Assembly: GCF_038024095.1 (NCBI RefSeq)
Contig: NZ_CP150668.1
Span: 868,001 to 932,000, forward strand
Length of the DNA: 64,000 nucleotides
From: Polaribacter tangerinus
GTDB lineage: Bacteria; Bacteroidota; Bacteroidia; Flavobacteriales; Flavobacteriaceae
Direction of reading: 5' to 3'
Positions 20,597 to 27,414 of this stretch are shown here, piece by piece. How positions within the stretch are numbered: the stretch's first letter is position 1; each line of letters begins with the position of its first letter. Made by a program: the position numbers and the translations under genes. A model generated the notes under the pieces. It made no database searches. It saw only the letters and a list, made by a program, of their open reading frames with translations, and had not been told where the DNA came from.

Positions 20597-21049
20597 TTAC
20601 TCTTTGTTCTTAGAATCTATAACTATTGTTACTGGTCCGTTGTTGGTCAAACTAACTTTCATATCTGCACCAAACTCACCTTTCCCTACACTTTTACCAA
20701 GCTGATTTTCTAATGTTTTTATGAATTTTTTGTAAAGTGGAATAGCAATTGTTGGTTTTGCAGCTTTTATATAACTTGGTCTGTTACCTTTTTTTGTAGA
20801 AGCGTATAACGTAAACTGACTCACAACAATTATTTCACCATCTACTTCTAGCACAGAATTGTTCATAAGGCCATTTTGATCATCAAAAATACGAAGGTTA
20901 ATAATTTTTCTTACCAAATAATCGATATCTTCCTGAGTGTCATCCTCTACAATACCTAATAAAACAAGAAATCCTGTTGCAATTTCAGCTACTCTTTCTT
21001 GATTGATAGTTACGTTTGCACTCGATACTCTTTGTAAAACAATTTTCAT
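20597..21049 (-). CDS. dtd: D-aminoacyl-tRNA deacylase
   Basis: 150 residues, the standard length. Removes D-amino acids (and glycine) wrongly attached to tRNA. The two diagnostic motifs are present: SQFTLYA and NNGPVTIVID (the GPVT motif). The N-terminus MKIVLQRVSSANVTI is typical. It lies 55 bases after rsgA and 5 bases before tatD in one operon. Confidence 0.95.
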   Translation of the reverse strand: MKIVLQRVSSANVTINQERVAEIATGFLVLLGIVEDDTQEDIDYLVRKIINLRIFDDQNGLMNNSVLEVDGEIIVVSQFTLYASTKKGNRPSYIKAAKPTIAIPLYKKFIKTLENQLGKSVGKGEFGADMKVSLTNNGPVTIVIDSKNKE

Positions 21050-21104
21050 ATTCTAGTAAAATTTACCTCCTACAACTATTTCTATTAAAGTTATGATTTA
21101 ACCC

Positions 21105-22061
21105 TTATTCTTCTCCCCAAACATCTGTTCTAAAATGCTCCTTATCATCTTCTCCTTCTAAAATTTGTAAATAACTTTTATAACGAGACCAAGAAATTTT
21201 ATCTTCTTCCAAGGCTTCTTTTACAGCACAATTCGGTTCTTTGGTATGAATGCAATTGTTAAATTTACAATTTTGTTTTAAGGCAAAAAACTCTGGAAAA
21301 TAATCTCCAAGTTCAAATTTATCAATATCTACTACTCCAAATCCTTTTATACCAGGAGTATCTATAATTTTACCATTAAAACTAAGGTCGAACATTTCGG
21401 CAAAAGTAGTGGTGTGTTTTCCTTGATTGTGCTGGTCGGAAATTTCTTTTGTTTTTAAATCTAAAGTTGGCTCAATGGCATTTACCAAAGTTGATTTTCC
21501 TACACCAGAATGACCAACAAACATTGATGTTTTACCTACCATCATCTCTTTTACAGCAGCAACATTTGTATGTTGAGTAGCAGAAACTTCTAAACATGTG
21601 TATCCGATAGCTTCGTATATATCTTTCAAATACATTACCTCTGCTCGCTCTTCTATTGCATAAGAATCTATCTTATTAAATAACAATATGGTATGTATTC
21701 TGTAAGCTCTTGTAGAAACTAAAAAACGATCTATAAAAGTGGTAAAGGTTGGTGGATTGTTTATGGTAATTAATAAAAAAACTTGATCTATATTTGATGC
21801 AATTACGTGAGTTTGTTTAGAAAGATTAACAGATTTACGTACTATAAAATTGTCTCGATCTAAGATTGTTTTAATAACACCTATTTCTTCATCGCCCTTT
21901 TTTTCTATATCGAAAACTACGCTATCTCCAACGGCTATAGGATTTGTACTTTTAATACCTTTTATTCTGAATTTTCCTTTTATTCTACAGTTGTAAAACC
22001 GACCTTCATCTGTCTTTACCTTGTACCAACTTCCTGTAGATTTATATACGATTCCTACCAT
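21105..22061 (-). CDS. rsgA: Small ribosomal subunit biogenesis GTPase RsgA
   Basis: 318 residues. An N-terminal OB fold (GIVYKSTGSWYKVKTDEGRFY) is followed by a circularly permuted GTPase: LLFNKIDSY (G4) precedes the P-loop GHSGVGKSTLVN (G1) and IDTPGIKGFG (G3). A C-terminal zinc site follows (CKFNNCIHTKEPNC). It helps late maturation of the 30S subunit. First gene of the rsgA-dtd-tatD-tcdA operon. Confidence 0.95.
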   Translation of the reverse strand: MVGIVYKSTGSWYKVKTDEGRFYNCRIKGKFRIKGIKSTNPIAVGDSVVFDIEKKGDEEIGVIKTILDRDNFIVRKSVNLSKQTHVIASNIDQVFLLITINNPPTFTTFIDRFLVSTRAYRIHTILLFNKIDSYAIEERAEVMYLKDIYEAIGYTCLEVSATQHTNVAAVKEMMVGKTSMFVGHSGVGKSTLVNAIEPTLDLKTKEISDQHNQGKHTTTFAEMFDLSFNGKIIDTPGIKGFGVVDIDKFELGDYFPEFFALKQNCKFNNCIHTKEPNCAVKEALEEDKISWSRYKSYLQILEGEDDKEHFRTDVWGEE

Positions 22062-22331: not shown

Positions 22332-23414
22332 CTATGCATTAATTATTTTTTCTTGATGATTGATAGATTCTTGATGAATTGCTTTGAACATTTTTAATAC
22401 AAATTCTTCACTTAATCCTTTGCTTTCACCCTCTAAAATCATATTTCCAAGAATCTCGTTCCAACGTTTAGATTGCAAAACTGCTACATTCTTCTCTTTT
22501 TTTAATGCTCCAATTTTATCTGCAATTCCCATACGTTTTCCCATCATTTCGATTAACTGACCATCTACAACATTTATTTGAGCTCTTAAATTTTCTAGAG
22601 AGTCTCTATAACTCGAATCTGTTTCAGTTTCTTTTCTAATTTTTAAATCTTGCATAATTTGCTTCAATTTTGAGGGTGTTACTTGCTGTGCAGCATCACT
22701 CCATGCGTTATCTGGGTCGAAATGAGTTTCTATCATTAATCCATCAAAATTTAAATCTAGGGCTGTTTGAGAAACATCAAAAATCATTTCTCTGTTCCCT
22801 GTAATATGAGAAGGGTCGCAAATTAATGGTAAATCTGGAAATTTATTTTGAAACTCGATTGCTAGCTGCCACTCCGGAATATTTCGATATTTCGATTTTT
22901 CATAAGTTGAAAATCCTCTATGAATGGCGCCTAAATTTTTTATGCCTGCAGTATATAATCTTTCTATTCCTCCTAACCACAAGGCTAAATCTGGATTTAC
23001 CGGATTTTTAACCAATACTATTTTATCTGTACCCTGTAAAGCATCTGCAATTTCTTGCATTATAAAAGGGGAAACAGTAGATCTGGCACCAATCCAAAGT
23101 AAATCTACATCATTTTCTATAGCTAATTTACAATGTGCTGCATTGGCAACTTCTGTACAAGTTTTCATACCTGTTTGCTCTTTTACCTTTTTTAACCAGC
23201 CTAAACCTAGGGCACCAACACCCTCAAAATTTCCAGGTCTTGTTCTTGGTTTCCAAATTCCTGCTCTATAATAGTTTACATCAGAATCTTTTAATTCGTG
23301 TGCAATTTTTAAAACTTGCTCTTCAGTTTCTGCACTACAAGGCCCTGCTATTACTAGTGGATGATCTAATTTCATATCGTCCAACCATGTTCTTAATGCT
23401 GCTGTATTCTTCAT
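22332..23414 (-). CDS. Bifunctional DAHP synthase / chorismate mutase (AroQ type)
   Basis: 360 residues. The N-terminal 260 residues form a type I-beta DAHP synthase barrel (PLVIAGPCSAETEEQVL, RAGIWKPRTRPGNFEG, LVKNPVNPDL, LICDPSHITGNR, IETHFDPDNAWSDA). The C-terminal 90 residues are an AroQ chorismate mutase helix bundle (DSLENLRAQINVVDGQLIEMMGKRMGIADKIGALK). The enzyme starts the shikimate pathway and also commits chorismate to prephenate. Fusions of this order are known in Bacteroidota, for example Prevotella, where prephenate gives feedback control through the mutase domain. Last gene of the attenuator-controlled operon, 22 bases after tyrA. Confidence 0.94.
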   Translation of the reverse strand: MKNTAALRTWLDDMKLDHPLVIAGPCSAETEEQVLKIAHELKDSDVNYYRAGIWKPRTRPGNFEGVGALGLGWLKKVKEQTGMKTCTEVANAAHCKLAIENDVDLLWIGARSTVSPFIMQEIADALQGTDKIVLVKNPVNPDLALWLGGIERLYTAGIKNLGAIHRGFSTYEKSKYRNIPEWQLAIEFQNKFPDLPLICDPSHITGNREMIFDVSQTALDLNFDGLMIETHFDPDNAWSDAAQQVTPSKLKQIMQDLKIRKETETDSSYRDSLENLRAQINVVDGQLIEMMGKRMGIADKIGALKKEKNVAVLQSKRWNEILGNMILEGESKGLSEEFVLKMFKAIHQESINHQEKIINA

Positions 23415-23436: not shown

Positions 23437-24288
23437 TTAATTTATGCCGTTTAAAATTTGTTTTATATAGTTTGTATTCTCCATTTCCTTAAAAATTTCA
23501 GAGAAATTATCTTGTTGCATTAGCTCTTTAAAATGTTGCAAATTGCCAATATATTCTTCTAATGTTTCGATAACATTTTCTTTGTTTTGTTTAAAAATTG
23601 GTGTCCACATTGCAGGACTACTTTTTGCTAAACGAACGGTAGACTCAAAACCAGAACCTGCCATATCGAAAATATCGCGTTCATTTTTTTCTTTTTCTAT
23701 AACTGTTTTTCCTAACATAAATGCACTTATGTGAGACAGGTGCGAAACATACGCAATATGTTTATCATGAGAAACGGCATCCATATAACGAATACGCATT
23801 CCAATAGCTCTAAAAAGGTCTAATGCTGTTTCTTGCAATTTAAAAGTTGTTTTTTCTACTTCGCAAATAATGTTTGTTTTTCCTTTATACAAGCCAGAAA
23901 TGGCTGCTGTTGGCCCAGATTTTTCTGTACCTGCAATGGGGTGACAAGCCAAAAAATTGCGTCTTCTTTTATGATGTTCAACAGCTTTACAAATAGCCTC
24001 TTTTGTAGAACCTGCATCTACAACTAAGGTAGTATCGGAAATTTTATCTAAAATAGTGGGTAGCAATTTTACAGTAGCATCTACAGGAATTGATACAATA
24101 ACCAAATCTGCATTTTCTAAATCGTTTAACGTTGCTTTTTTATCGATTAATTTTAATTCTAATGCTTTGTTTAAGGTCTCGTCTTTTCTACTAATGCCAT
24201 GTAATACAGTATTTGGCAGATGTTTTTTTATATCAATAGCAAAACTGCCACCAATTAAACCAATTCCTATAAAAAATATATTTTTCAT
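23437..24288 (-). CDS. tyrA: Prephenate dehydrogenase
   Basis: 283 residues from MKNIFFIGIGLIGGSFAID at 24288; the longer start at 24318 adds ten residues before the Rossmann strand and is not favoured. NAD-binding GIGLIGGS at residues 7-14, VIVSIPVDATVKLLP, VVDAGSTKEAI, and the catalytic-region FLACHPIAGTEKSGP. It converts prephenate to 4-hydroxyphenylpyruvate for tyrosine. No ACT domain is fused. Fourth structural gene of the aromatic operon. Confidence 0.93.
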   Translation of the reverse strand: MKNIFFIGIGLIGGSFAIDIKKHLPNTVLHGISRKDETLNKALELKLIDKKATLNDLENADLVIVSIPVDATVKLLPTILDKISDTTLVVDAGSTKEAICKAVEHHKRRRNFLACHPIAGTEKSGPTAAISGLYKGKTNIICEVEKTTFKLQETALDLFRAIGMRIRYMDAVSHDKHIAYVSHLSHISAFMLGKTVIEKEKNERDIFDMAGSGFESTVRLAKSSPAMWTPIFKQNKENVIETLEEYIGNLQHFKELMQQDNFSEIFKEMENTNYIKQILNGIN

Positions 24289-24330
24289 TGTATTTATTTT
24301 CAATGGATTAAAGCCCATTGTTTTGATATA

Positions 24331-24537
24331 TTATTCTAATTTCTTTTTGTTCGCTTTTTTTTGAACTTCCTTTTTTTGAAGAGTAATACCAATGGCAACT
24401 CCTAAAGAAAGTCCCAAACTAATTCCTAAAGCTATATTTCCCAGAACTAATCCTATTGCACTTCCTAAGGCAACTCCTAAACTCATCCACAAACCTAACT
24501 TTTTCTTCACTTTTATATTTTTAAAATCAAATGCCAA
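24331..24537 (-). CDS. Small glycine-zipper membrane protein inside the aromatic operon
   Basis: 68 residues. A basic N-terminus (FDFKNIKVKKKLG) leads to a hydrophobic stretch of about 40 residues rich in evenly spaced glycines (SLGVALGSAIGLVLGNIALG and then ISLGLSLGVAIG), ending in a lysine-rich tail. The glycine spacing suggests two tightly packed membrane helices. The two halves look like an internal repeat. It lies 5 bases after the aminotransferase gene and 42 bases before tyrA, so it is co-transcribed. I do not recognise a function; a role in aromatic amino acid metabolism is not shown by the sequence. Confidence 0.7.
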   Translation of the reverse strand: MAFDFKNIKVKKKLGLWMSLGVALGSAIGLVLGNIALGISLGLSLGVAIGITLQKKEVQKKANKKKLE

Positions 24538-24542
24538 CTGAA

Positions 24543-25685
24543 TTAAAATCTACCAATCGCTTCTTTAATCACTTCAGAGGTTACACACAATGAAAAACGG
24601 ATATATCCTTCTCCTTGAGAGCCAAAAATAGTTCCTGGTGTGATAAAAATATTTTTCTCGTAAAGAATACTATCTGTAACTTCTTCAGATTTTTTCCCTT
24701 CAGGAATTTTTGCCCATACAAATAAACCTGTTGCGTTTTTATTGTACACAGCATCTAATTTATCTGCTAATTCCCATATTAGTTTTCTACGTTCTTGATA
24801 AATTTTATTCTGATTAAAAAACCAATCATCAGATAATTGTAAAGCTTCTATAGCACCTTTTTGAATACCATAAAACATACCAGAGTCCATGTTCGATTTT
24901 ACTTTTAATATTTCGTTGATATATGTTGCATTTCCTAAAACCATACCAACTCGCCAACCAGCCATATTAAAGGTTTTACTTAATGAATTTAATTCTAAAG
25001 CAATATCTTTTGCGCCTTTAACTTGTAAGATACTTGTAGGTGTATCATTTAGAATAAAACTATAAGGATTATCATTAACTATTAAAATATGGTGCTTTTT
25101 ACCAAAGGCTACCAACTTTTCGAATGTTTGTAAAGTTGCATTGGTTCCTGTTGGCATATGCGGATAATTTACCCACATAATTTTAACATTACTTAAGTCT
25201 TGTTTTTCTAATTCTTTAAAATTTGGTTGCCAATTAGTCGCATCACTCAAATTATAAAAAAGTGGTTCTGCTCCCACTAATTTTGTTACAGATGTATATG
25301 TTGGATATCCTGGATTTGGAATTAACACTTTATCGCCTTCATTTAAAAAAGCCATAGAAATGTGCATAATCCCCTCTTTACTTCCCATTAATGGCAACAC
25401 TTCATTTTCTGGATTAATTTCTACAGAAAATTTATCTTTGTAAAAAGTAGCAATTGCATTTCTTAATTCAGGTAAGCCCTGATATGACTGATATTTATGT
25501 GCAGAACCATCATGTAAACTTCCTTTAATAGCCTCTAAAACTTTTGCTGGTGGTTGCAAATCTGGAGAGCCAATTCCCATATTGATAATTGGTTTTCCTG
25601 CTGCCATTAACTCTCTTACCTCTCTTAATTTTTTAGAGAAATAGTATTCTTGAACGGTGTCTAATCTTTTTGCAGGCTGTATCAT
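24543..25685 (-). CDS. Class I/II aminotransferase (aromatic/aspartate-type)
   Basis: 380 residues, PLP-dependent fold type I. The Schiff-base lysine lies in LNSLSKTFNMAGWRVG, and other landmarks are INMGIGSPDLQPP, NPGYPTYTSVTKL, VNYPHMPTGTNA and IRFSLCVTSEVIKEA. It shares an operon with prephenate dehydratase and dehydrogenase, so it probably aminates phenylpyruvate and 4-hydroxyphenylpyruvate to Phe and Tyr, or prephenate to arogenate (inference). It starts 1 base before the end of the dehydratase gene region (25687). Confidence 0.9.
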   Translation of the reverse strand: MIQPAKRLDTVQEYYFSKKLREVRELMAAGKPIINMGIGSPDLQPPAKVLEAIKGSLHDGSAHKYQSYQGLPELRNAIATFYKDKFSVEINPENEVLPLMGSKEGIMHISMAFLNEGDKVLIPNPGYPTYTSVTKLVGAEPLFYNLSDATNWQPNFKELEKQDLSNVKIMWVNYPHMPTGTNATLQTFEKLVAFGKKHHILIVNDNPYSFILNDTPTSILQVKGAKDIALELNSLSKTFNMAGWRVGMVLGNATYINEILKVKSNMDSGMFYGIQKGAIEALQLSDDWFFNQNKIYQERRKLIWELADKLDAVYNKNATGLFVWAKIPEGKKSEEVTDSILYEKNIFITPGTIFGSQGEGYIRFSLCVTSEVIKEAIGRF

Positions 25686-25686
25686 C

Positions 25687-26511
25687 TTATTTTCTTCCGT
25701 TTTTATAAGTTCCTAATATTTTAAACTCTTCGGCCATTATTTGTATAACAGCAACTGCTTTCTCATATTCTTTGTAATCATCAAAAGTTACATCTACAAA
25801 AAAGGAATATTTCCAGGGCATTTCTATAACTGGCAAAGATTGAATTTTAGTTAAATTCATTTTACAATCGCTCAACACATTTAAAATAGCTGCCAAACTT
25901 CCTCTTTTATGATTCAATTGAAATTTTAAAGATGCTTTGTTTACCTCTTCGTTTATTACTGGTTTATCCGTTTGTACAATTACAAATCGTGTAGAATTGT
26001 CTTTAATCGTTTGAATTTCATCTTCAATAATTGTCAAATCGAAAATTTCAGCGGCTATTTTTGGAGCAATTGCAGCAATTCCTTTTAAGTTTTCTTTAGA
26101 TATTCTCTTAGCAACCTCAGCAGTATCTACATCTTCTACTAATTTTATATGTGAATGATTTTTAAAAAACTCCTTACATTGTAATAATGCCATAGGATGC
26201 GACCAAACTTCTTTTATATCTTCAATCGTTTGATTCTCTAAACACATTAAATGATGATGAATATTTAAATATTCTTCTCCTATTATATGTAGGTTATTAT
26301 TATCTATTAACGCATAATTAGGAATTATAGACCCTGCAATGGTATTTTCTAACGCCATTACTCCTAAATTGGCAGTTTTATCTAGTAAGCAATCCACCAA
26401 CACATCGAAAGACATGCATTCTTTTAGTTGAATGTTGTTTCCATAAAAGTCGCGAGCAACTTTATGATGGTTTGAGCCTTCTGCTCCTTGGATGGCGATT
26501 GTTTTTTTCAT
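25687..26511 (-). CDS. pheA: Prephenate dehydratase
   Basis: 274 residues: catalytic domain (AIQGAEGSNHHKVARDFYG, VMALENTIAGSIIPNYALI, and the NSTRFVIV segment with the catalytic Thr) and a C-terminal ACT domain (about 190-274). It makes phenylpyruvate. The Phe-binding motifs of well-studied ACT domains, GALxxxL and ESRP, read GSLAAIL and QSLP here, so classical Phe feedback may be altered. First structural gene of the operon, placed directly behind the attenuator terminator (26563-26533). Confidence 0.93.
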   Translation of the reverse strand: MKKTIAIQGAEGSNHHKVARDFYGNNIQLKECMSFDVLVDCLLDKTANLGVMALENTIAGSIIPNYALIDNNNLHIIGEEYLNIHHHLMCLENQTIEDIKEVWSHPMALLQCKEFFKNHSHIKLVEDVDTAEVAKRISKENLKGIAAIAPKIAAEIFDLTIIEDEIQTIKDNSTRFVIVQTDKPVINEEVNKASLKFQLNHKRGSLAAILNVLSDCKMNLTKIQSLPVIEMPWKYSFFVDVTFDDYKEYEKAVAVIQIMAEEFKILGTYKNGRK

Positions 26512-26532: not shown

Positions 26533-26563
26533 AAAAAAAAAGCCTCGAAGTAAATTCGAGACT
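26533..26563 (-). terminator. Attenuator terminator in front of the aromatic operon
   Basis: Minus-strand stem AGTCTCGAA (26563-26555), 5-base loop, TTCGAGGCT (26549-26541), then nine T. One G-U pair. It is located between the leader peptide stop and pheA, inside the transcript. Its first arm is shared with the alternative (antiterminator) pairing. Confidence 0.88.
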
Positions 26564-26606
26564 TTATATATAATTTATGCTTCTTAACAACACGATACAA
26601 AGTCTC
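26558..26606 (-). promoter_or_regulatory. Antiterminator pairing of the Phe/Tyr attenuator
   Basis: Minus-strand segment GAGACTTTGTAT (26606-26595) can pair over 12 bases, with one G-U, with ATATAAAGTCTC (26569-26558). The second segment contains the left half of the terminator stem, so the two structures exclude each other. The first segment overlaps codons after the Phe/Tyr run. A ribosome stalled at that run leaves it free; a ribosome at the stop codon covers or disturbs it. Confidence 0.8.
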
Positions 26607-26664
26607 TCCTCTTACTAAAAAAGTAAAAGTAAAAATAGAAACGTGTCCAAGTGTTGTTTAACAT
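26584..26664 (-). CDS. Phe/Tyr-rich leader peptide of the aromatic operon attenuator
   Basis: 26 residues, ATG at 26664-26662 and TAA at 26586-26584. Residues 9-16 are FYFYFYFF; with Trp6 and Phe22 the peptide has six Phe, three Tyr and one Trp. It sits 73 bases upstream of the prephenate dehydratase start, behind a good promoter and ahead of a terminator with a competing antiterminator. This is the classical layout of translation-coupled attenuation (as in E. coli pheA). The mixed Phe and Tyr codons fit an operon that makes both amino acids. A protecting hairpin AACAACAC (26658-26651) with GTGTTGTT (26593-26586) is also possible. The peptide itself needs no function. Confidence 0.85.
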   Translation of the reverse strand: MLNNTWTRFYFYFYFFSKRRDFVSCC

Positions 26665-26686
26665 TTTATGCTCTTTATTTGAGTGA

Positions 26687-26717
26687 CAAATCTAAAGATT
26701 AATTTTAGATATACAAA
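26687..26717 (-). promoter_or_regulatory. Promoter of the aromatic operon leader
   Basis: Minus-strand TTTG (26717-26714), 19-base spacer, TAGATTTG (26694-26687): a full match to the Bacteroidota TTTG/TAnnTTTG pattern with good spacing. The leader ATG follows about 22 bases downstream. Confidence 0.75.
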
Positions 26718-27079: not shown

Positions 27080-27087
27080 TATATTTG
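27080..27087 (+). promoter_or_regulatory. -7 box of rpsO
   Basis: TATATTTG followed by C, 57 bases before the rpsO ATG. Confidence 0.55.
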
Positions 27088-27144
27088 CACCTTCAATAGA
27101 AAAGATCTGTTGAAACGCATAAAAATCATTTAAATAATATTGGC

Positions 27145-27414
27145 ATGTACTTAACAAAAGAAGTAAAAGAAAGTATCTTCGAAAAACACGGTAAAGGAAA
27201 AAACGATACTGGTTCTTCAGAAGGTCAAATTGCGTTATTCACGCACAGAATTAACCATTTAACAGAACATTTAAAAAGAAATCGTAAAGACTTTAACACA
27301 GAGCGTTCATTAGTAATGATGGTTGGTAAGCGTAGAAGCTTATTAGATTATGTAAAGAAAAAAGATATTTTAAGATATCGTGCAATTATTAAAGAATTAG
27401 GAATTAGAAAATAA
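27145..27414 (+). CDS. rpsO: 30S ribosomal protein S15
   Basis: 89 residues, exactly the normal size. Segments DTGSSEGQIALFTHRINHLTEHLK and RRSLLDYVKKKDILRYRAIIKELGIRK are S15 hallmarks. It binds 16S rRNA early in 30S assembly. The rpsO-pnp order is widely conserved in bacteria. A strong terminator separates the two genes here and pnp has its own promoter box. Confidence 0.97.
   Translation: MYLTKEVKESIFEKHGKGKNDTGSSEGQIALFTHRINHLTEHLKRNRKDFNTERSLVMMVGKRRSLLDYVKKKDILRYRAIIKELGIRK

Follow-up and report, generated by a model that had tools for sequence, protein, structure and literature searches.

The pheA leader of Escherichia coli contains an ORF with phenylalanine codons, followed by mutually exclusive antiterminator and terminator structures, ahead of the gene for prephenate dehydratase. 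In the thr and ilv systems of the same organism, one leader reads more than one amino acid on behalf of a multi-product operon. Beyond the Proteobacteria, leader peptides are described in the available text of papers on Actinobacteria (PMC1262725) and Firmicutes (PMC2965389; Naville and Gautheret, 2010); these are likewise cases of attenuation, but in other phyla and at other genes. For the Bacteroidota, the available text of a Bacteroides thetaiotaomicron transcriptome (PMC7366714) mentions short ORFs resembling attenuation leaders, and a survey of leader genes (PMC4833913) counts such genes in Bacteroidetes, the word pheA not occurring in its available text.

Closest to the present case is a 2021 transcriptome of Flavobacterium psychrophilum (PMC9723704). 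Its text, taken apart from the supplement, gives clues to leader-peptide attenuation at amino-acid operons, lists a structured 5′ element at pheA with no Rfam match and records the conservation of this element in other genera of the Flavobacteriaceae. That element lies at the same gene, and in the same bacterial family, as the leader described here. Its codons, its pairings and tryptophan do not appear in the text of PMC9723704, supplement excluded, and no published account of them was found in a search that had most subscription journals and supplements outside its scope. We infer that the F. psychrophilum element and ours are the same. The preliminary description of our locus had called such leaders much less documented in Bacteroidota than in Proteobacteria, which is fair, but F. 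psychrophilum attenuation and the pheA element were already present in PMC9723704. The attenuator is known in kind, and its presence in the family is already indicated by the F. psychrophilum work. New, as far as we have seen, are the comparison across the family and class, the finding that codon run and switch point agree, and the Trp codon together with a probable explanation for it.

The leader examined here precedes pheA of Polaribacter tangerinus in a stretch of 64,000 nucleotides, referred to below as the window. Like the E. coli pheA leader, it combines an ORF of aromatic codons with an exclusive antiterminator and terminator. Unlike it, the flavobacterial leaders contain Tyr and often Trp codons as well, and they head a four-enzyme operon that includes DAHP synthase. 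With the E. coli thr and ilv leaders it shares the presence of codons for several amino acids, the difference being that these are aromatic here and perhaps three in number. A further departure from the E. coli pheA leader is that the bacterial group of the window is said to lack Shine–Dalgarno sequences (PMC9723704, in the text available). In our view, its anatomy and conservation make it very probable that the window element attenuates transcription in the classical, ribosome-mediated way.

Architecture of the leader and of the operon behind it

The whole element occupies the minus strand of the window from 26717 to 26533, and pheA starts 3′ of it at 26511 (Table 1). TTTG, which is the usual form of the −33 element in Bacteroidota, is separated from the −7 box by 19 nt. 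The text of PMC9723704 places the −7 box at −12 to −5; if the box sits there in the window, transcription is predicted to start near 26682. The terminator stem comprises 11 pairs and its T tract nine T, the antiterminator has 12 pairs, one of them G–U, and the protector helix has eight (26658–26651 with 26593–26586). The promoter had been read in the preliminary description as TTTG-N19-TAGATTTG, which holds base for base. The 26-codon ORF with FYFYFYFF and the 12-base antiterminator pairing that it proposed are both found in the sequence, and its terminator with nine T is confirmed.

The leader RNA of 148 nt has a lower fold energy than each of 200 dinucleotide shuffles (z = −4.28) and lies 13 kcal/mol below the shuffle mean. 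When the window RNA is folded without a ribosome, the aromatic codons pair with a purine-rich stretch downstream of them, so that the antiterminator arm is buried in a single long hairpin.

Table 1. Features of the putative attenuator and of the downstream operon in the window
Feature	Position	Strand	Sequence	Basis
−33 element	26714..26717	-	TTTG	sequence
−7 box	26687..26694	-	TAGATTTG	sequence
Leader ORF, 26 codons	26584..26664	-	MLNNTWTRFYFYFYFFSKRRDFVSCC	sequence; aromatic leader in 113/114 family genomes
Segment 1, protector helix 5′ arm	26651..26658	-	AACAACAC	minimum-energy fold
Trp codon, codon 6 of leader	26647..26649	-		sequence
Phe/Tyr codons 9–16	26617..26640	-	FYFYFYFF	sequence
Segment 2, antiterminator 5′ arm	26595..26606	-	GAGACTTTGTAT	sequence, duplex
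Protector helix 3′ arm	26586..26593	-	GTGTTGTT	sequence and minimum-energy fold
Segment 3, antiterminator 3′ arm, overlapping terminator 5′ arm	26558..26569	-	ATATAAAGTCTC	sequence, duplex
Intrinsic terminator (stem 26565–26539, T tract 26541–26533)	26533..26565	-		sequence
pheA, prephenate dehydratase	25687..26511	-		PF00800, E 4.8e-53
Class I/II aminotransferase	24543..25685	-		PF00155
68-residue open frame between aminotransferase and tyrA	24331..24537	-		ORF
tyrA, prephenate dehydrogenase	23437..24318	-		NF006307 above cut-off
DAHP synthase fused to chorismate mutase	22332..23414	-		PF00793 and PF01817

Pfam and NCBIfam matches bear out the dehydratase, aminotransferase, dehydrogenase and DAHP synthase that had been assigned downstream. 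The closest named relatives of the window PheA, among the matches listed, belong to Polaribacter, with 91% identity. In 76 of 80 family genomes, from each of which 5.5 kb was taken, the genes for PheA, aminotransferase, TyrA and DAHP synthase follow one another in this order on the same strand, and an rsgA match is next in line within this distance in 43 of those 76. In the window the aromatic operon is followed on the same strand by rsgA and dtd (D-aminoacyl-tRNA deacylase), which occupy 20597–22061 (minus), and then by a TatD-like gene. The 68-residue frame is glycine-rich and hydrophobic and matches nothing in Pfam or NCBIfam at E 0.001. An S15-Flavobacteria ribosomal protein leader (RF03161, 69.5 bits) is located at 27080–27147 on the plus strand, just before an 89-residue frame at 27145.

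Conservation in the family and class

A PheA relative was found in 186 of the 199 family genomes searched. We examined 114 of these, nearly all of different genus codes; they form the listed part, ordered by similarity, in which divergent PheA proteins are under-represented. The main set comprises 110 genomes (L001–L030 and L111–L190), with L279–L282 as the other four. A leader was defined as an ORF that begins with ATG, is 16 to 28 codons long, has five or more F/Y in eight codons and lies no more than 300 nt upstream; 107 of the 110 genomes have one. The leaders of L012 and L127 lie farther upstream, beyond this first 300-nt scan. All four additional genomes have a leader, that of L279 being recognized only if W is counted; in L279, CCCGCC..GGCGGG hairpin repeats (300–650) stand between the attenuator and pheA, which places the leader about 650 nt upstream. 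An aromatic leader ORF (at least five aromatic codons in eight) was found upstream of pheA in 113 of the 114 genomes, L185 being the sole one without it. Five of eight is reached by 67 of 1100 shuffles. With at least six F/Y/W in eight codons within 450 nt of pheA, the count is 107 of 110, compared with 4 of 1100 shuffles.

All 80 of the named loci, which are the best 80 of 180, picked for similarity and mostly from Polaribacter and Tenacibaculum, have a leader. A class-level search outside the family gave 37 PheA matches, 36 of which were fetched; 108 of 149 class genomes had no PheA match in this search and are thus uninformative on leaders. At the 36 pheA loci a leader (at least five of eight) occurs 24 times (13 of 360 shuffles), and 22 of these 24 leaders are followed by a terminator (3 of 120 shuffles). 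Beyond the class, a scan for ORFs alone at 20 loci of different family codes found one such ORF (L328). These counts suggest that leader-peptide attenuation, which was worked out in Proteobacteria, is of old standing and wide distribution at the aromatic operon of Flavobacteriaceae, and that it reaches other members of the class too. The pheA leader element could merit an RNA family entry of its own.

A strict scan for TAnnTTTG matched only 14 of 108 family leaders, and the box was widened to TAnnTT[TA]G after inspection of the upstream DNA. Of 107 family leaders, 103 have the wider form no more than 60 nt upstream of their ATG (134 of 1070 shuffles), and 81 have it 15 to 22 nt upstream (19 of 1070). 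In most genera of the family the −7 box is TAC[TAC]TTAG, mostly 15–22 nt upstream of the leader ATG, and in Polaribacter and Tenacibaculum it is TAnnTTTG.

Conservation in relatives had been set beforehand as a test of the element, and the aromatic leader codons, the terminator and the antiterminator arm do recur across the family. A terminator-like site follows all 108 family leaders, compared with 17 of 540 shuffled regions. On the alignment, pairing in its stem runs at 94 to 98 per cent, more than in any of 1000 shuffles, a share that is biased upwards in that the stems were located by their pairing; several pairs show changes on both sides. For the antiterminator, the mean duplex energy in 107 leaders is −9.4 kcal/mol, compared with −5.0 kcal/mol when the leader is shuffled. 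None of 20 shuffles was as good in 41 of the 107 leaders, and at most one was in 67. The 5′ arm lies at leader nucleotides 50–72 in 102 of the 107; the other five were dropped and four more could not be scored for the three-way comparison, leaving 98. When terminators were swapped between leaders, the mean own-arm pairing was 17.3, compared with a mean of 14.5 and a maximum of 15.0 in 200 permutations, and shared ancestry contributes to this better own-arm pairing.

The three-way states of the central base are G-C-G in 54 leaders, A-U-A in 21, A-U-G in 21 and G-U-G in two (n = 98), as expected of one segment that serves two helices. On the PheA tree the arm base and its partner each change five times; the contrasts are concordant, but only two of them fall on well-supported branches, too few for a test. 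Counts of paired cells by column, made on MAFFT alignments, depend on the reference. With L001 the count is 697, and the highest of 500 shuffles reaches 695; with L118 it is 534, compared with a shuffle mean of 533.7; with L151 it is 510, and no shuffle exceeds 489. These mixed counts stem from a displacement of the arm by one base between two clades, and the shift persisted in a gap-averse realignment. The RNA core CGRGAC is read in two frames, with peptides TGL in one group and NETL in another, which indicates that the RNA and not the peptide is kept there.

The preliminary description had also proposed a third pairing that can protect the antiterminator segment. This is present in the window, but the exact helix is not kept column by column in relatives, where 349 of 850 cells are paired (41%), which is under the shuffle mean of 375. 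Some helix in the place of the protector has a mean of −7.1 in relatives, compared with −3.6 for shuffles, and at most one of 12 shuffles is as good in 67 of 102 rows. The pairing of segment 1 that would free the terminator in an untranslated leader is clear in the window RNA; in relatives some pairing there is stronger than in shuffles, with a weak effect in the folding model.

Stalled ribosomes and the proposed mechanism

The spacing of the leader elements was measured in 102 rows. From the first base of the last aromatic codon to the start of the antiterminator arm the median distance is 14 nt, and from there to the stop codon it is 13 nt (range −8 to 22). The 5′ arm of the antiterminator lies just past a ribosome stalled on the regulatory codons, and the position of the stop codon is such that a ribosome finishing the leader would cover the arm.

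At equilibrium, the window RNA has a P(terminator) of 0.94 both when free of ribosomes and with a ribosome at the stop codon. Stalls at codons 5–13 favour antitermination, with P(terminator) between 0.01 and 0.37; the value is 0.36 at the Trp codon and goes from 0.20 to 0.01 at codons 9 to 12. When the complete RNAs of all 107 leaders are treated in this way, only 25 have any codon that brings P(terminator) below 0.5, and in most leaders the terminator is favoured even with a stalled ribosome. The scarcity of an equilibrium switch suggests that in most relatives the antiterminator would need to form while the terminator is still incomplete, as it does in the classical attenuation model.

A co-transcriptional model, built after the equilibrium result and kept side by side with it, lets the ribosome cover −12 to +15 relative to the P site, at a time when segment 4 is still to be transcribed. 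In this model the share of segment 3 that is bound upstream averages about 0.75 with the ribosome at any of codons 5 to 14, then 0.73, 0.62, 0.41 and 0.37 at codons 15, 16, 17 and 18, respectively. The share of aromatic codons at the same four positions is 0.97, 0.79, 0.26 and 0.08. For the window RNA the values are 0.73 to 0.76 up to codon 16, 0.48 at codon 17 and 0.18 at codon 18; stalls at codons 2–16 favour antitermination, and codon 16, the last Phe of the run, is the last stall that leaves the antiterminator unchanged. Since the codon run and the modelled hold drop at the same place, the regulatory codons end where, in the model, stalling would fail. Segment 3 is held at 0.61 in the untranslated state and at 0.39 with the ribosome at the stop codon. 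With the ribosome stalled at the first aromatic codon, this share is greater than in the stop state by 0.2 in 79 of 107 leaders, and greater than in the untranslated state by 0.2 in only 32. The early non-aromatic codons 2 to 4 score 0.68 to 0.74, near the aromatic ones, a difference to which the model is blind.

The reading of the element as an attenuator, already made in the preliminary description, is supported by the anatomy, by conservation in the family and, in part, by these models, and the sequence of events would be as follows. RNA polymerase would start near 26682 and a ribosome would enter the leader ORF. A shortage of charged tRNA-Phe or tRNA-Tyr, and perhaps of tRNA-Trp, would make the ribosome stall in the aromatic codons and keep segment 1 out of the protector hairpin, leaving 26606–26595 free. 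This segment would pair with 26569–26558 once these are transcribed, blocking the terminator, and the operon of pheA, aminotransferase, tyrA and DAHP synthase would be transcribed. With charged tRNAs available, the ribosome would reach the stop codon at 26584 and cover the antiterminator arm; hairpin 26565–26539 would form and the transcript would end after about 150 nt. In the absence of translation the protector hairpin would close and the terminator would form too, judging from the fold of the window RNA only.

Since AT-rich DNA readily yields aromatic codons, as the 67 of 1100 shuffles at five of eight illustrate, one might suppose that the ORF is accidental and that a fixed terminator causes constitutive partial termination before pheA, with no sensing. 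The fall to 4 of 1100 shuffles at six of eight, compared with 107 of 110 real leaders, and the distances between codon run, antiterminator arm and stop codon render this extremely improbable. The aromatic-rich peptide might instead stall the ribosome by itself, in the manner of the nascent-peptide arrest element tnaC, and the constraint on aromatic residues, including Trp, in one column would suit such an arrest. However, the number and order of F and Y differ between genera, the C-terminal part of the leader changes frame, and in the same genome each of the trp, his, thr and ilv leaders abounds in codons for the amino acid of its own pathway; we consider arrest by the peptide very unlikely.

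A riboswitch or T-box, in which the RNA would sense the amino acid or the tRNA directly and the ORF would be incidental, could present a similar structured 5′ leader with terminator and antiterminator, and the available text of PMC9723704 does list a structured pheA element with no Rfam match. An Rfam scan of the site gave no family at its cut-off, and the best weak match was Phe_leader RF01859 (26 bits compared with a cut-off of 55, E 0.022, 26656–26533, minus strand), of which the window element is not a member. No T-box was found at the gathering level in the window, nor does one appear in the list of 20 matches with E up to 10. Moreover, the feature that recurs in relatives is the F/Y-rich ORF itself, and direct sensing by the RNA is highly unlikely. 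The riboswitch and T-box readings were dropped on the basis of the scan at cut-off and the permissive listing at E up to 10.

Tryptophan codons and sister leaders

The mixture of Phe and Tyr codons had been taken to suggest one sensor for two amino acids. Both kinds of codon are there, but not these only: 75 of 108 family leaders contain a Trp codon (74 of 107 without L012), as do 49 of the 80 named loci and seven of the 24 class leaders outside the family. Compared with the PheA proteins of the same genomes, W is 7.8 times commoner in the leaders, F 5.5 times and Y 4.9 times. In the main W column (108 rows) the residue is W in 42, F in 34, Y in 26 and another in six; Phe or Tyr accordingly fills 60 of the 66 non-W rows, and conversion of TGG to a Phe or Tyr codon takes two base changes. 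The second W column shows a looser pattern (W 30, F 13, Y 2, others 63), in part owing to a mixture of two leader types at that position. On the tree of 98, the presence of W has changed 14 times or more. The W codon of several YFWNGF-type leaders lies inside the protector helix, and part of the conservation of W could therefore be structural.

Type II DAHP synthase (PF01474) was found in none of the 199 family genomes. The genome of the window encodes two PF00793 proteins, and the one outside the operon is KDO-8-phosphate synthase, so the operon enzyme is the only DAHP synthase detected in this genome and Trp synthesis should depend on it. Judging from its codons, the leader may sense each of the three aromatic amino acids. 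We propose tentatively, at slightly less than even chances, that one peptide integrates Phe, Tyr and Trp because of the sole DAHP synthase, with the trp operon under its own Trp-rich leader, and that attenuation is general for amino-acid synthesis in Flavobacteriaceae, operating without Shine–Dalgarno initiation. Attenuation would be at work here although translation in this family starts without Shine–Dalgarno sequences, and the Trp codons make it simple to test whether a single leader reads three amino acids.

Leader-like ORFs precede other amino-acid genes in the genome of the window: the Trp-rich MKNNVQNIWWWNSLNS before trpE, the His-rich MTFTQNHHHHFNNCHQAM before hisG, the Thr-rich MSMQTTTRTTTTITL before a gene of the aspartokinase family with an 815-codon open frame, and the Ile-rich MHKQIVNIISIIIIVFITT before ilvD. 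Terminators follow the trp, his and ilv leaders, and the antiterminators are weak (−4.6, −6.3 and +0.8, respectively); for the thr leader of this genome the terminator site overlaps the leader and is unconvincing, and no antiterminator was found. Together with the Phe/Tyr leader, these four (loci L206, L225, L290 and L295) give one flavobacterial genome five attenuator-like leaders. Among the loci scanned, at least three W in eight codons occur at 18 of 26 trp loci (0 of 260 shuffles), at least three H at all 22 his loci (1 of 220), at least six T/I at eight of ten thr loci (1 of 100) and at least seven I/L/V at five of ten ilv loci (0 of 100).
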